Source: Actinomycetota bacterium
Lineage (GTDB): Bacteria > Actinomycetota > Actinomycetes > JACCUZ01
Direction: 5' to 3'
Length of the DNA: 64,000 nt
NCBI GenBank assembly: GCA_030841035.1
Contig: JAVEDI010000051.1
Span: 1-64,000 of the forward strand
Shown here piece after piece: positions 1-8,337 of the stretch. Below the pieces are notes generated by a model. It made no database searches. It was not told the origin of the DNA and saw only the letters and a program-made list of their open reading frames with translations. Within the stretch, counting starts at the first letter, position 1. Each line of letters begins with the position of its first letter. The position numbers and the translations under genes were made by a program.

Positions 1-2423
<2,423 letters not shown>

Positions 2424-2661
2424 GCGGTCTCTCCTGCTGCTCGTCGGTCTGGCGCCGTCGGCACGCGGGGGCGCGCCGCCGGCTACGGCAGGCGCACCCG
2501 GCACATGCTCAGGGCACCTGTCGTCCCTCTCATCGTAGGCGTACGGGCCCATCTGCACCGTTTCACCGGTGGCGAACGGCACCGCCGAGTCGGCTCATCG
2601 GGCGCAGCCCCGGTGACAACGCGCTCGCCGAACACCCGGCATGCCCGGTTGGATGGTGACC

Positions 2662-3207
2662 ATGGACCCGGTCGAGCTCTCCGACAGCCGCCTTCTGCTG
2701 CGCCTGCCCACCCAGGCCGACGTCGACGAGATCACCCTGGCCTGCCAGGACCCCGAGCTGCAGCGCTGGATCCCTGTGCCCGTCCCCTACGCACGCGAGC
2801 ACGCGGCCCAGTGGGTCGGCGAGACGCCGAGCTCGTGGGCCGAGGACCAGGAGCTGCGGTGGGTCATCACGGAGCGCCGTACCGACGGCACGATGAGCGG
2901 GCCCCTCGGTGCTATCGGCCTGCACGCCCGCGACGCCACCATGCGCGAGGTCGGTTTCTGGGTCGCCCCGTGGGCGCGCGGCCGCGGGCTGATGACCGAC
3001 GCCGGTCGGGTGGCCTGTCGCTGGGGCTTCGAGGAGCTCGGACTCGGCCGCATCGAGTGGTGGGCCAACGTCGGCAACAACGCCTCCCGGCGGGTCGCCG
3101 AGAAGCTCGGGTTCCAGTTCGAGGGCACCTGCCGGGCCCGCCTCCTGCACCGCGGCAGCCGCGTCGACGGTTGGGTGGCCGGTCTGCTCCCCGGCGAGCT
3201 GACATGA
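2662..3207 (+). CDS. GNAT N-acetyltransferase, RimJ/RimL type (domain type A)
   Basis: Single-domain acetyl-CoA-dependent N-acetyltransferase of about 181 residues. The acetyl-CoA loop is read as APWARGRGLMTDA, followed by CRWGFEELGLGRIEWWANVGNNASRRVAEKLGF, which is split here only to name its parts: the beta-4/alpha-3 region and the conserved N-x-x-S-x-x-V-A-E-K-x-G-F segment typical of RimJ/RimL proteins. Three in-frame ATGs exist (2641, 2653, 2662). I chose 2662 because MDPVEL lines up with the start of the paralogue at 4336 and a GGATGG lies just before it. The stop overlaps the ATG of the next gene by 4 nt (ATGA), so the pair is probably translationally coupled. Substrate unknown; RimJ/RimL relatives acetylate ribosomal protein N-termini, antibiotics or small amines. 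Confidence 0.88.
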   Translation: MDPVELSDSRLLLRLPTQADVDEITLACQDPELQRWIPVPVPYAREHAAQWVGETPSSWAEDQELRWVITERRTDGTMSGPLGAIGLHARDATMREVGFWVAPWARGRGLMTDAGRVACRWGFEELGLGRIEWWANVGNNASRRVAEKLGFQFEGTCRARLLHRGSRVDGWVAGLLPGELT

Positions 3208-4307
3208 GGTCGCAGCCCGTGCTGCGGGACGCCACGGTGTCCCTGGGGGCGTTCTGCGACGGAGACACGGCCGAGATCGTCAGCGCTGCGCGCGACCCCG
3301 AGACGCGGCGCTGGACGACGTTGAGACTCGACTACACCACGGCCGACGCCCGGCAGTTCGTGGCCTTCGCCGCGCAGAGCTGGGCCACCGGCGCGGAATG
3401 CGTGTGGGCGATGCGCGCCCCCGGCGAGGCACGTTGGGCCGGTTCGATGGCGCTGCGCGCCGACCACCGCGATCCGCAGCTGGCCGACGTCGGCTTCCTC
3501 TGCGCCCCTTGGGCCCGCGGGCGGGGGCTGACCACGGCGGCCCTGCGGCTGACCTGCGCGTGGGGCTTCCGCGAGCTGGGCCTGGCCCGCATCGAGTGGC
3601 GAGCACACGTCGGCAACCTGGCCTCACGCTGGGTGGCCGAAAGGGTGGGCTTCGTGTTCGAAGGCACCCAGCGGCAACGACTTGTGCAACGCGGCATCCG
3701 CCGTGACGCATGGGTCGGCGGACTGCTGCCGGGCGACCTGCGCTCGGTGGATCCTCCGACCGCGCTCGCCCCGGAAGTGCGCACCGAGGGGCTGCTGCTC
3801 GGTCCGTGGCGCGAGCAGGACGCGCCGCAGGTGCTGGAGATCGCCGAGGACCCGGACACACGGGCCTGGTCGGGGTCCATGCGCGCGATGCGCACACTCG
3901 ACGACGCACGTGAGTGGATGCGTGCCCGCAGGGCAGACGACGACCGCGTCGACTGGGCCGTGCGCGACGCCGACACCGAGCTACTGGTGGGGAGGGTCGG
4001 GCTGGGTCACTTCGACCACCAGGCCCGCAGCTGTGAGATCGGGTACGGCGTCCATCCCGGGCACCGCCGTCGTGGTGTGGCCCTCCGGGCGGTCACAGCC
4101 GCGACGGCGTACGGCTTCGAGTCGTTGGGACTGGCGCGGATAGCGCTGTTCCACGCCATCGGCAACCCGGCCTCGTGCGCGGTCGCGACCGCGACCGGGT
4201 TCGAGTTCGAGGGAATCGAGCGGTCCTCATTCGACCACGGCGACGGCGTGCTGCACGACGTACACCGTCATGCCCGGCTGGCGAGTGACCCACCGGTGAT
4301 CCGGTGA
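3204..4307 (+). CDS. Tandem double-GNAT acetyltransferase (domains A' and B)
   Basis: A 367-residue protein with two complete GNAT domains. The first half (about residues 1-175) carries APWARGRGLTTAA and ends GGLLPGDL; it is clearly a duplicate of the preceding gene (GLLPGEL). The second half (about 190-367) carries EIGYGVHPGHRRRGVALRA and ends HARLASDPPVIR, resembling the gene that follows (HARLASDPEPVA). ATG at 3204 overlaps the upstream stop as ATGA. The stop codon TGA at 4305-4307 lies inside an 8-bp tandem repeat, so the last codons are repeat-derived. Reading frame continues open far upstream into antisense secA, but that part is a high-GC shadow. Either both domains are active or one regulates the other; the substrate is unknown. 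Confidence 0.87.
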   Translation: MRSQPVLRDATVSLGAFCDGDTAEIVSAARDPETRRWTTLRLDYTTADARQFVAFAAQSWATGAECVWAMRAPGEARWAGSMALRADHRDPQLADVGFLCAPWARGRGLTTAALRLTCAWGFRELGLARIEWRAHVGNLASRWVAERVGFVFEGTQRQRLVQRGIRRDAWVGGLLPGDLRSVDPPTALAPEVRTEGLLLGPWREQDAPQVLEIAEDPDTRAWSGSMRAMRTLDDAREWMRARRADDDRVDWAVRDADTELLVGRVGLGHFDHQARSCEIGYGVHPGHRRRGVALRAVTAATAYGFESLGLARIALFHAIGNPASCAVATATGFEFEGIERSSFDHGDGVLHDVHRHARLASDPPVIR

Positions 4308-4340
4308 TCCGGTGATCCGGTGATCCGGTGATCCGGTGAT
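4293..4340. repeat. Perfect 6 x 8 bp tandem repeat CCGGTGAT
   Basis: Six exact head-to-tail copies of CCGGTGAT fill 4293-4340. The repeat contains the stop codon of the upstream double-GNAT gene (TGA 4305-4307) and the GTG start of the next GNAT gene (4336). Each unit carries GTGA, so a start and a stop codon overlap in every copy. Because 8 is not a multiple of 3, adding or losing a copy changes the spacing and relative frame of the two genes, but the upstream stop is fixed by the first two copies. This kind of short perfect repeat is prone to slippage. Confidence 0.97.
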
Positions 4341-4887
4341 CGAGCCGGTCGAGATCGCGGCGGGACGACTGCAGCTGCGAGCGCCGGTAGATGCCGACGC
4401 GACCGATGCCCTGCTGATGCTGCAGGATCCCGCCGTCCGGCTGTGGAACCCCGCCCCCGAGGTCCTCGACCTCGCGGACGCGCGCGAGTGGTGCCGGCGC
4501 GGCGCGAACTGGGCCGATGGCCAGCACGCGACGTTCGTGGTGATCGATGCGACGACGGGACGGCTGCTCGGCAACGTGTCACTGCACTCGATCGACTCCG
4601 AGCAGCACGATGCGGAGATCGGCTACCGCGTCGCGCCCTGGGCGCGGGGCGCCGGCGTCGGCACCGATGCGGTGGCCGCGGCCACGCGCTGGGCGTTCGG
4701 CACGCTTGACCTGGTGCGTATCGAACTCGCTCACGCCGTCGTCAACCCTGCCTCGTGCCGGGTGGCGGAGAAGGCGGGCTACCTGCTGGAGGGAACGCTG
4801 CGGCAGTCGTACATCTATGGCGACGGGATGCGGTACGACGAGCACCTGCACGCCAGGCTGGCCAGCGACCCCGAGCCGGTCGCCTGA
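4336..4887 (+). CDS. GNAT N-acetyltransferase (domain type B')
   Basis: A 183-residue RimJ/RimL-like acetyltransferase: N-terminal VEIAAGRLQLRAP, central AEIGYRVAPWARGAGVGTDA (acetyl-CoA loop) and NPASCRVAEKAGY. It is most like the second domain of the preceding gene, including the shared ending HARLASDP. The GTG start lies in the last copy of the CCGGTGAT repeat and has no recognisable Shine-Dalgarno, so initiation probably depends on ribosomes that stop 29 nt upstream at the end of the preceding gene. The frame is closed upstream by a TGA at 4321-4323, which confirms that the start must be within or after the last repeat copies. It ends 6 bp from the convergent cyclase gene. Confidence 0.85.
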   Translation: MIEPVEIAAGRLQLRAPVDADATDALLMLQDPAVRLWNPAPEVLDLADAREWCRRGANWADGQHATFVVIDATTGRLLGNVSLHSIDSEQHDAEIGYRVAPWARGAGVGTDAVAAATRWAFGTLDLVRIELAHAVVNPASCRVAEKAGYLLEGTLRQSYIYGDGMRYDEHLHARLASDPEPVA

Positions 4888-4893
4888 CGACCC

Positions 4894-7800
4894 TCAGCGC
4901 ACCCATATCTGGTCGAGGAGCGGCCCGAGCGAGATGCCGGACTGGTAGTTGCCGACCCGCTTGGAGACGAAGAACGGCAAGGTGCCGTGGTCAGTGGGCA
5001 CGATGACCGCGTCGTCGGCGATCACGCGGTAGACCTGGCGCCAGAGGCGATCGGCGGCGCCCGGGTCGCTCTGCGCCACGTCGACCGCTCGTGCGGCGAG
5101 TGCATCGACCCGCTGGTTGCAGTAGCCCCCGAGGTTGACACCGTTCTTGATCGCGTCGCACGACAGCAGCGGCAGGAAGTACTGCGAGGCCGCCGGCCAG
5201 TCCGGCAGCCACCCCATGTCCAGCACGTTCGCCCGCTGCGGTCCACTGGTGACGCTCGCGTTGTCGCCGGGCGCGGGCACCGCGTGCGGGTGGTAGCCGA
5301 TCTGCCGGAGCAGTTTCATCAGACTGTGCCGACCCGACTCGGTGATGAACTCGGTGTGGACCAGGACATCGTCCCCACGGGTGCCGGACCGCTGCACGAG
5401 GTCTCTCGCCCGGCCGATGTCGGGGGTGGAGCCGAACGGGCAGTGCGGCTCGTAGCCCGGGAACCGAGCCGGCAGCAGCTCGCAGGTGGTCTCGTCCTTC
5501 GGGTAGAGCGGCAGGTCGCGGACGAAGTCCCGCCGGTCGATGCCCACGGCGAGTGCCTCGCGGGCCAGCTTGTTGTCGAACGGTGGCCGAGTCATGTCCG
5601 GGATCAGGTAGACGGTCTTCGCCACGGTCGAGGTGTGGACCTGAGCGGGCAGCTGCAGCGCCAGCTCTGCGGCATCGCTCGGCGTGGACGCGCGCAGGTC
5701 AAGCAGGTCCGCGCCGCCGTCCTTGACGCGCTCGATGAGACCGGCTGGCGACCCCAGTTTCCACTGCAGAGCATCGGGATATCCCCGTGGCTGAGCGGCC
5801 GCCGACCATGGCCGGAAGTAGGGGTTGCGCTCGAGCCGGACCGCCACTCCATGCTGGTACGCCGTGACCTGGTAGGGGCCCGTGCCCGGAACGACCCCGG
5901 CACCGGCCTCTTCGTTCGGCACGCCGGGAGGCACCGGGCTCGCGGGCACCACCACCAACTTGAAGAGGAACTCGGGGTCCGCTTCCCGGAGGTGGAACGT
6001 CACCGTCGAGGCGTCGGTGACGATGCCGGCGGACAGGTCACACGTACGAGCTCGGCATGCGTCGGCTCCCACGATGCCGGAGAAGTAGCCCGCGACCCCC
6101 GCGTACTCGGTGCCCCGCGTTGCGTTGAAGACGCGCTCGATGCCACGGCGGAAGTCTGCGGGCACGACGGTGCGGCCGTCCGAGTAGCGAATGTGCGGTC
6201 GCAGCGCGAACGTGTAGGTCCGCCCCCCGTCCGTGGGGATCGGGCGCTTGACCGCCAGGTCCGGCACGAGATCGAAACTGTCGACCCCCCCGACCCGGCG
6301 GTAGCCGACGAGCCCGTCGTAGACGGACATCATGGCTCTCGCGGCGTTGGGGTCGGAGACGAAGGCGGGGTCGACCGTGGACGGGATGCCCTCCTGCTTG
6401 CCGACGGCGATCCTGAGCGTTCCACCGAAGTGCTCTGCCGAGGCGAACGGCCGGGTCGATGCGAAGACCTGAGAGCCGACCATCGCCAGTCCGTACGGCG
6501 ACGCTCCGATGCCGACCGTGTCGGTCACCGTGTCCGTCGCCGGGTCGATGCGGACCAGGCTGCCCTCCGCGGCGACACTCACCCACACCTGGTCGCCGCT
6601 CGCGACGACCGCAAAGGGGCTGTCCCCGACATTGATCTGTGCTCGCTCCTGCTGGCTCGTCGCATCGATGTGCGACACGGTGAGGCCGTTGCGGTTGGCC
6701 ACCCATACGCCGTTCGCTGCCACCGCGATGCCCTTGGGGCCGGCTCCCACATTGATCGGCGAGTCCGCGCGCATCGTCGTGGGATCAATGCGCTGCACGG
6801 TGCCGTCACCACCGTTGCTGACCCAGACGGCCCCGTGACCCACCGCGACCCCGCCCGGGTTGCGGCCGACCTGCACCCGCGTCGGGTCGATGCGTCCCGT
6901 CCGGGCGTCGATGCGTACGACGGTCGCGTCGGCGAGGTTCGCGACCCACAACGAGCCGAGACCAGCGGCGATCGCCACCGGCTGGTTGCCGACACCGGTG
7001 ATGCGGTCGACCTCGCGGTTGGTCGTCGTGCTCACGCGGGAGACGCTGCCGTCCTGGCTGTTGACCGCCCAGACGTCGCTCTTGGTGACCGCGACTGCAA
7101 CGGGCGCGCTGCCGACCGGCACCGACTGCACCACGCGCTTCGTGTCGGGGTCGAGCCGCAGCACGGCGTCGGCCGACGACTGCGCCACCCAGAGGGCACC
7201 GGAACCCGACGCGACACCCTCGGGCGCTCCACCCGCCTCGGCGGCGTTGACGAGTCGGGCCGCCCCGCCGTCGATGACCGCGACGCCACCCGCCGGGACC
7301 GTGACGGCCCGATCGGTCGCGGTGCGGCTGATCAGCACTCCCGCGGTCGCGGCGACGACGGCCAGGACGACGAGAGCGGCGATCCAGGCGCGCGGATCAC
7401 GCCGCCACCGGCGGCTCTCCGTCACGAGGTCGTGGAACCGGCGCTCCCGGGTGCGGTCGATGTCGTCAGCGCGCACAAGCACGTAGCGGGTGGGGGCGGC
7501 CATGCCCTTGAGCCGGGCGGCACCACGGTCGACGTACGCAAGGCCTTCCACGGTGCCCGCCAGGTGCGCCAGCTCGGCGGTGGCCAGCACCTCCCCGGCC
7601 GCCGCCTTCGCACACAGCCGAGCCGCGACGTTGAGTGCCGCAGCCGACCGGTTCAGGCCCTCGTCCGCGGGCTCGCCGATGTCGATGCCTATCCCGACCG
7701 CCAGCGGAGGCCCTGTCCCGTTGACCGTCTCGTCCACGCAGCGGGCCCGCAGGTCAGCGGCCGCACGCAGTGCCTGACGAGACGAGTCGAACTCCAGCAG

Positions 7801-8121
7801 TACCTGGTCACCCCAGGTGCCGCGCAGCCGGCCACCGTGGTCGCCAGCCACCGCAGTTCCCATCGCGATGAAGAAGTCCGCAAGCCGGGCTGCTGCCTCC
7901 GCCCCGGCGCGCTGGGTGAACTGGGTGAACCCGCGGATGTCCGCGAACAGGAAGGTCACCAAAGCTCCGGAACCGCGAGGTCCCGGAACGACGAGCGGCT
8001 TCTGCACCTCCGCCGTAGTAGGCGGCCTCCCGTCGGCAGGCGGCGAGTGCCCGTCCACGTCATCGAGACTTGCACGATCGGCCGCCCGGGTCCATGCACT
8101 TCGCCGGGTTCCGTGGGACAT
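4894..8121 (-). CDS. Class III nucleotide cyclase - TM - beta-propeller - peptide-binding (SBP_5) fusion
   Basis: A receptor-like protein of about 1075 residues from the ATG at 8121. Order: class III cyclase domain (about 50-215) with both metal aspartates visible (FADIRGFT and RGTWGDQVLLEF) and the transition-state Asn/Arg in LNVAARL; the lysine usually four before the second Asp is Gly here. A single membrane helix follows at about 246-265 (WIAALVVLAVVAATAG). Then six blades with the pattern (V/L)WV(A/S)-x-(N/Q) about 43 residues apart (about 285-560), as in virginiamycin-B-lyase/YVTN propellers, and last a full extracellular solute-binding family 5 domain (about 576-1075) as in oligopeptide-binding proteins. 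Inferred topology: cyclase inside, propeller and binding domain outside. The frame stays open to a GTG at 8337, and a GTG at 8058 is also possible; upstream residues look non-homologous. Product (cAMP or cGMP) and ligand are unknown. Confidence 0.87.
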   Translation of the reverse strand: MSHGTRRSAWTRAADRASLDDVDGHSPPADGRPPTTAEVQKPLVVPGPRGSGALVTFLFADIRGFTQFTQRAGAEAAARLADFFIAMGTAVAGDHGGRLRGTWGDQVLLEFDSSRQALRAAADLRARCVDETVNGTGPPLAVGIGIDIGEPADEGLNRSAAALNVAARLCAKAAAGEVLATAELAHLAGTVEGLAYVDRGAARLKGMAAPTRYVLVRADDIDRTRERRFHDLVTESRRWRRDPRAWIAALVVLAVVAATAGVLISRTATDRAVTVPAGGVAVIDGGAARLVNAAEAGGAPEGVASGSGALWVAQSSADAVLRLDPDTKRVVQSVPVGSAPVAVAVTKSDVWAVNSQDGSVSRVSTTTNREVDRITGVGNQPVAIAAGLGSLWVANLADATVVRIDARTGRIDPTRVQVGRNPGGVAVGHGAVWVSNGGDGTVQRIDPTTMRADSPINVGAGPKGIAVAANGVWVANRNGLTVSHIDATSQQERAQINVGDSPFAVVASGDQVWVSVAAEGSLVRIDPATDTVTDTVGIGASPYGLAMVGSQVFASTRPFASAEHFGGTLRIAVGKQEGIPSTVDPAFVSDPNAARAMMSVYDGLVGYRRVGGVDSFDLVPDLAVKRPIPTDGGRTYTFALRPHIRYSDGRTVVPADFRRGIERVFNATRGTEYAGVAGYFSGIVGADACRARTCDLSAGIVTDASTVTFHLREADPEFLFKLVVVPASPVPPGVPNEEAGAGVVPGTGPYQVTAYQHGVAVRLERNPYFRPWSAAAQPRGYPDALQWKLGSPAGLIERVKDGGADLLDLRASTPSDAAELALQLPAQVHTSTVAKTVYLIPDMTRPPFDNKLAREALAVGIDRRDFVRDLPLYPKDETTCELLPARFPGYEPHCPFGSTPDIGRARDLVQRSGTRGDDVLVHTEFITESGRHSLMKLLRQIGYHPHAVPAPGDNASVTSGPQRANVLDMGWLPDWPAASQYFLPLLSCDAIKNGVNLGGYCNQRVDALAARAVDVAQSDPGAADRLWRQVYRVIADDAVIVPTDHGTLPFFVSKRVGNYQSGISLGPLLDQIWVR

Positions 8122-8337
8122 GGCGCTGCGCCGTCCGAGAAGAGCAGCTCCGGCCGGACACCGACGATGCGGTGACCCAGTCGTTCGATCGACCCGGCGG
8201 GCGATGACGCTGACCGCCAGCAGGAGCTCCCGGCCGCTGGTGCCATCGAGCGAGACCGCAGAGACTGCGCGTGCCGCCGGGTCCCCGCTGTCACGAGCGC
8301 GACAGTCGGCCCGGTCGGCGGGTGACTCCCACCACAC
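8122..8337 (-). other. Ambiguous stretch between YcaQ-like gene and cyclase: possible N-terminal extension or frameshifted remnant
   Basis: The cyclase frame is open back to a GTG at 8337, 2 nt after the YcaQ-like stop, so a 72-residue extension is formally possible. Between about 8180 and 8260 this frame has strongly GC-rich third positions (GRELLLAVSVIARRVD), but just downstream another frame reads better (LGHRIVGVRPELLFSDG, about 8110-8185). Joined, they give one plausible peptide, so this may be a decayed gene piece with a one-base frameshift or a sequencing error. I do not recognise it. Confidence 0.35.

Follow-up and report, generated by a model that had tools for sequence, protein, structure and literature searches.

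The gene at 4894–8121 of the stretch analysed here (the window, 64,000 nucleotides of a draft Actinomycetota genome) encodes a single protein of 1075 residues which we read, at a probability of about 0.7, as a single-span receptor, where an extracellular and probably peptide-type ligand would control an exchangeable intracellular output, in this case a cyclic nucleotide. Along the chain, a class III cyclase is followed by one membrane helix, a YVTN/Vgb propeller and an SBP_bac_5 domain, and Pfam, AlphaFold2 and hydropathy agree in placing sensor, one span and output within the same polypeptide. That a ligand outside alters the output inside is what we infer from the domain content, the signs of topology and the exchange of outputs among relatives, and the propeller-SBP receptors probably constitute a little-described family of bacterial receptors.

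A sequence-only reading of this DNA had already proposed one open frame at these coordinates, and it was right in both respects: the 1075 codons are uninterrupted between the ATG and the stop listed in Table 1. The same frame remains open further upstream, as far as a GTG at 8337, which leaves the true start codon uncertain. We are dealing with a real gene and not with a chance frame, because a 47% identical protein with the same four parts is present in another genome of its family (G005), and around 18 further cyclase versions exist. The same reading had regarded frames broken in related genomes as an argument against it, and we found one such case beside many intact copies: in a low-quality relative (L010, contig 86 of G006, a genome 80% complete) the propeller and SBP pieces adjoin in two different frames, either as a broken gene or as an assembly error. 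This case, and the draft status of the source genome, would be expected if the gene were an assembly chimera or a decaying fusion devoid of function, an explanation to which we concede hardly any weight: it is contradicted by the recurrence of the architecture, with 33–47% identity and open frames, in many unrelated genomes, and by the presence of its BTAD and kinase forms (see below) in isolates.

Table 1. Position of the gene and its features in the window (all on the minus strand).
Feature	Position	Strand	Residues	Basis
Whole gene	4894–8121	−	1075 aa	ATG at 8121, stop 4894–4896; open frame; full-length relative L005, 47% identical
Class III nucleotidyl cyclase domain	7468–7965	−	53–218	phmmer (Ma1120, Rv1900c and CyaB structures); AlphaFold2 pLDDT mostly 80–96
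Metal-binding Asp	7939–7941	−	D61	Alignments
Adenine-selecting Lys position (K101 of Ma1120)	7819–7821	−	G101	Ma1120 alignment; PMC4215837
Metal-binding Asp	7807–7809	−	D105	Alignments
Second base-selecting position (D157 of Ma1120)	7651–7653	−	N157	Ma1120 alignment; family column
Transition-state pair, Asn to Arg	7618–7632	−	N164 to R168	Alignments
Juxtamembrane segment, Arg-rich (candidate coupling element)	7387–7467	−	219–245	AlphaFold2 helix 223–238
Single transmembrane helix	7321–7386	−	246–267	Hydropathy; charge bias; AlphaFold2 helix of low confidence
Seven-bladed YVTN/Vgb-type propeller	6451–7287	−	279–557	TIGR02276 repeats; Vgb_lyase; AlphaFold2 strands; VGxxP repeats
SBP_bac_5 (DppA/OppA-type) domain	4897–6438	−	562–1075	Pfam; phmmer 8upi, E 8e-34; Foldseek 8upi, E 1.5e-35
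Cysteine pair	6040–6057	−	C689/C694	34/34 sequences
Cysteine pair	5440–5484	−	C880/C894	34/34 sequences
Asp aligned with that of DppA GWTGD (5f1q)	5200–5202	−	D974	Asp in 25/34
Cysteine pair	5119–5160	−	C988/C1001	33/34, both lost in L074; aligned with two DppA Cys (5f1q)

The four parts proposed for this chain, including a complete SBP_5 domain, were all recovered. Searched against solved structures with phmmer, the protein gave three separate matches that do not overlap: 8upi and OppA/DppA proteins over residues 576–1067, the surface-layer YVTN protein 1l0q over ~311–550, and the cyclases Ma1120 and Rv1900c over 51–225. An AlphaFold2 model built from an alignment of 34 relatives (mean pLDDT 86, pTM 0.72) was confident for each of the cyclase, the propeller and the SBP, and of low confidence for residues 1–52 and for the linker and helix (239–270), hence the relative placement of the domains across the membrane is not fixed by the model. 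Where the propeller had been counted as six-bladed, a correction is needed: seven VGxxP repeats begin near residues 296, 336, 377, 418, 458, 498 and 538 (the last two recognised by eye), and together with the strands of the AlphaFold2 model, in which the N-terminal strand 279–284 closes the last blade, they make a seven-bladed propeller. Pfam assigns Vgb_lyase to residues 293–548 with 57.6 bits, and NCBIfam finds five YVTN repeats.

The protein has neither an N-terminal signal peptide nor a lipobox; it has instead an internal helix that follows a 240-residue domain of cytoplasmic type. Hydropathy shows only one strong hydrophobic stretch, with a 19-residue mean of 2.65 at position 247, which agrees with AlphaFold2 and with the single membrane helix previously proposed. 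The 30 residues before this helix (216–245) contain 10 arginines and those after it 2, and the positive charge lies on the N-terminal side in most of 30 family members. On the other side of the helix, six cysteines of the SBP part are conserved in pairs, and in the one exception lost as a pair, throughout an alignment of 34 proteins that takes in free lipoprotein SBPs. This pattern is what disulfides predict, and the six residues probably form them, which would suit an extracellular location. Given these cysteine pairs and the positive-inside bias, which fit each other, the SBP part would be located outside the cell and the cyclase inside.

The outer domain leaves little doubt about its class, as SBP_bac_5 scores 124 bits in Pfam (residues 618–920), and a Foldseek search retrieved many OppA/DppA structures, with 8upi showing a TM-score of 0.79 by target length. 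Residue D974 aligns with an aspartate of DppA, presumably the D408 that binds the peptide amine. The conserved aspartate is missing in about one quarter of the family, so ligands may vary among its members. Considering the family as a whole, whose members are predicted almost exclusively for peptides (PMC9602780), and this aligned aspartate, the ligand is most likely a short peptide or a peptide-like solute.

SBP_bac_5 proteins normally serve ABC importers, and the domain could accordingly be an anchored transport subunit that feeds an Opp/Dpp permease encoded elsewhere, the cyclase reporting on transport or being regulated by it. The nearest free relatives of the SBP domain are lipoproteins, one of them confirmed beside an OppC-type permease; the genome does have Opp-like permeases on other contigs, and in one relative's genome (G452) an SBP_5 and a permease gene lie a few kb from the receptor. 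Against this, the missing nearby permease that had been noted from the sequence is an accurate observation for the whole 76.5-kb contig, which carries no BPD_transp_1 gene (37 occur elsewhere in the genome), and permease homologues were found near the locus of just 1 of 18 relatives, that of G452, some of these loci being short at contig ends. Moreover, the same outer module on BTAD regulators and on a kinase suggests signalling, and we consider a transport subunit improbable. An outer module that is combined, over one membrane span, with outputs unrelated to each other usually marks a sensory input domain, and this speaks against a transport subunit.

At the G452 locus (L085, contig 23, 8312–18999), the neighbours of the fused receptor include a GntR regulator and a DUF1028 protein, besides the free SBP_5, a prolyl oligopeptidase of family S9 and the permease. 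It is a possible peptide-use locus, and as such a lead to the ligand.

The cyclase domain is less canonical. The Guanylate_cyc model of Pfam gives it 18.4 bits, below the curated cut-off of 21.9, so the Pfam check suggested with the original reading succeeded for the SBP and failed for the cyclase, though phmmer finds Ma1120 (E 1e-9) and Rv1900c; several relatives of the same architecture exceed the cut-off, such as L065 and L136 with 29 bits each. Both hallmarks of class III are present, the metal aspartates D61/D105 and the transition-state pair N164/R168, and the alignment supports these residues as originally assigned, together with the glycine at the adenine-selecting lysine position. (The numbers 101 and 157 are identical in this protein and in Ma1120 by coincidence.) Besides G101, N157 is a second unusual base-selecting residue, and neither the canonical K/D pair for ATP nor the E/C or E/G pairs for GTP are found. 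The same G/N pair occurs in L005, the relative of its own family, whereas five type-A members at a greater distance (L047, L048, L049, L060 and L065) have E/G, which is the base-selecting pair reported for the guanylyl cyclase Cya2 (PMC4215837). Active enzymes differ from each other at this position, which is therefore informative about the product and not about the membership in class III; G101/N157, as read from the alignment, leave the choice between cAMP and cGMP unsettled.

The score below threshold and the unusual G101/N157 are compatible with a pseudoenzyme that binds a nucleotide or only dimerises, with the signal passing by protein contact, and so is the Val or His that stands in place of Asn164 in the cyclases of subtypes B (L050, L052, L055, L056) and C (L061, L066, L074–L076). 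However, the four catalytic residues are all present here and in every type-A relative, and subtypes B and C keep the arginine and, where that part is covered, the aspartates. Ma1120 itself, a natural class III enzyme, has an Ala at the transition-state Asn position and yet is active (PMC4215837), so by analogy subtype B and C cyclases need not be dead. A pseudoenzyme seems to us an unlikely description of this domain. The genome encodes another Guanylate_cyc protein above the cut-off (L078, in which an NB-ARC-like part, recognised by eye, follows the cyclase) and three cNMP-binding proteins, so that a cyclic nucleotide would not lack a receiver.

The family was searched in a sample of ~1350 genomes, drafts included, and in named genome contigs. 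A scan of the genome collection with this protein alone gave no match; with the aligned family it gave 50 loci. All counts are approximate, due to the sampling and to some named contigs that duplicate others (L130 and L006, for example), and those relatives that are truncated or arranged in tandem are known from draft assemblies. A cyclase and an SBP_5 domain co-occur, within the complete four-part chain, in ~20 proteins, mostly from Actinomycetota and including two Chloroflexi MAGs (L005, L047–L050, L052, L055, L056, L059, L060, L061, L065, L066, L074–L076, L136, L141 and L142; L056 and L059 are both cut by a contig end, L136 is from a Jatrophihabitans MAG, and L141 and L142 are the Chloroflexi ones). 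The helix-propeller-SBP_5 unit is also found behind a Trans_reg_C and BTAD (BTAD/SARP-type) regulator in ~17 proteins (L006, L007, L051, L062–L064, L067–L071, L077, L131, L132 and L139), some of them assigned by reading the N-terminal sequence without a Pfam scan, and two of which belong to Streptomyces isolates, namely S. cylindrosporus (L131) and S. lincolnensis (L132). In Pedococcus bigeumensis (L144), the unit is kept behind a Ser/Thr kinase (Pkinase 150 bits, SBP_bac_5 134 bits). As the same outer module is found on BTAD regulators and on a kinase, the helix-propeller-SBP module is not specific to cyclases, a point that could not be seen from this DNA alone. The receptor reading gains support from the repetition in distant genomes, the positive-inside flank, the conserved cysteine pairs, the lack of a linked transporter and the additional outputs.

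A tree calculated from the SBP part, from which the kinase form was left out, places the included fused proteins on one side of a branch with 100/100 support and four free lipoprotein SBPs on the other. An interleaving of cyclase and BTAD forms is no more than suggested by it. In the best tree the output type changes 10 times, of which well-supported branches require a few, chiefly between cyclase subtypes, and we rejected the tree as a proof of many swaps. Exchange between cyclase subtypes is more firmly shown than cyclase/BTAD exchange, as exemplified by type-A L049 beside type-B L050 with 100/100 support. The distribution of the family is patchy: one other genome of the same genus was looked at and does not have the architecture, a class-wide search around G598 gave no further members, and plasmid records contain partial matches, the best over the SBP part, and no full-length one.

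Taken together, a mechanism can be proposed in which the SBP domain would close on an extracellular short peptide or peptide-like solute, while the propeller would act as a stalk or as a second docking surface holding two receptors in a defined geometry. The ligand-dependent rearrangement would then be transmitted along the membrane helix and the Arg-rich helix next to it and alter the pairing of the two cyclase domains, resulting in more or less cyclic nucleotide. Class III enzymes act as dimers, so a ligand-controlled pairing through a single helix would be the simplest coupling. Direct control of this kind is feasible, as in PMC4821796 a class III cyclase was gated by the receptor to which it had been fused. 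The points against the receptor reading are the sub-threshold Guanylate_cyc score, the atypical base-selecting residues, the Asn lost in several relatives, the patchy distribution and the lack of a conserved neighbourhood.

The roles of the outer domains could also be the reverse, with the propeller sensing the ligand and the SBP serving as an adaptor that binds the wall or a protein. Extracellular propellers are known sensor domains of receptors, as in PknD (PMC3322341), and propeller modules occur without an SBP on other proteins. Most of the invariant columns of the family, however, are in the SBP part, where the GTGPY and RN766 core is kept and D974 mostly so, which makes a sensing propeller a rather doubtful choice. 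The protein without SBP (L012, contig 797 of G014, 1468–3924) joins in one frame a Hsp70/DnaK-like ATPase (by eye), then a hydrophobic stretch, and then a propeller of the YVTN type, so the propeller unit may have further outputs.

Tandem cyclase-propeller-SBP receptors occur in some genomes: L060 and L075, of subtypes A and C, are adjacent in G796 (contig 104, 11458–17809), and further pairs are present in G493 (C57; L055 and L059) and G417 (C98; L052 and L056). Tandem receptors of different cyclase subtype could possibly form complementary heterodimers.

Different known systems share parts of this design. The transcription factors SgrR and DsvR of enterobacteria and Vibrio (PMC13060122) also use an SBP_bac_5 domain as the sensor of a one-chain regulator, but their output is an HTH, they lack a propeller and no membrane helix has been described in them, whereas our protein has a cyclase, a helix, a propeller and conserved Cys pairs, and does not contain an N-terminal HTH joined directly to SBP_bac_5. 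PknD of Mycobacterium tuberculosis (PMC3322341) combines an intracellular enzyme and an extracellular propeller in one receptor; its propeller is six-bladed and no SBP follows it, while the kinase member L144 has an SBP_5 after the propeller. Mycobacterial class III cyclases of the Ma1120/Rv1900c type are the closest solved cyclase domains by sequence, although the matched structures cover no membrane helix, propeller or SBP, and their base-selecting residues differ from G101/N157. The DppA and OppA proteins of ABC importers are alike in fold and sequence to the outer domain; they have a lipid anchor or are released, and have importer genes, in contrast to the membrane-helix tether without importer genes alongside described here. 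Animal receptor guanylyl cyclases, such as the natriuretic peptide receptors, have an outer domain of the periplasmic-binding-protein kind, one span and a class III cyclase inside; compared with them, our protein shows the opposite chain order, a different fold class of binding protein and a propeller, with no demonstrated relation.

In the open-licence literature, we found no description of this architecture or of its domain pairs, and we rate it as a known kind of protein, a transmembrane receptor, in a new combination of domains. It is known that SBPs can stimulate receptors as separate proteins (PMC9602780), and the debate on whether extracellular ligands gate class III cyclases directly has relied mostly on chimeras and orphan membrane anchors (PMC4821796). 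Natural proteins with a recognisable ligand-binding domain, probably outside, and a cyclase inside make this question directly testable. If our reading is true, they would represent a family of modular receptors that has taken binding domains of peptide transport into signalling and combined them with three or more kinds of output, among them BTAD in the S. lincolnensis isolate. A bolder version is speculative and as a whole not likely: the propeller and SBP_5 would be a general plug-in sensor of extracellular peptides for single-span receptors, exchanged between cyclases, Ser/Thr kinases and BTAD regulators, and the type-A members, whose sister proteins have the E/G pair, would be peptide-gated bacterial guanylyl cyclases, analogous in function to the natriuretic peptide receptors of animals.

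Downstream of the gene there is a convergent GNAT acetyltransferase gene, and upstream, on the same strand, an AlkZ-like DNA glycosylase, followed by an M14-type peptidase (+), a LuxR-type response regulator and a ribosome hibernation factor. The window contains a cluster of GNAT genes (2641–4884, +), where a frame with two GNAT-like halves (~3204–4304, by eye) lies between the single-domain genes 2641–3204 and 4336–4884. Among the loci of the 18 relatives, no neighbour is common to most of them. The two loci from Streptomyces have SufB in common, as well as an ABC ATPase and a gene resembling aminoglycoside acetyltransferases, with no clear functional link. In Pedococcus bigeumensis (L144, 1902–2810 and 8162–11988), an FHA-domain/HTH protein and a subtilase come directly after the kinase-propeller-SBP receptor, and a glutaminase upstream of it; these neighbours are candidates for a kinase target and a peptide source.
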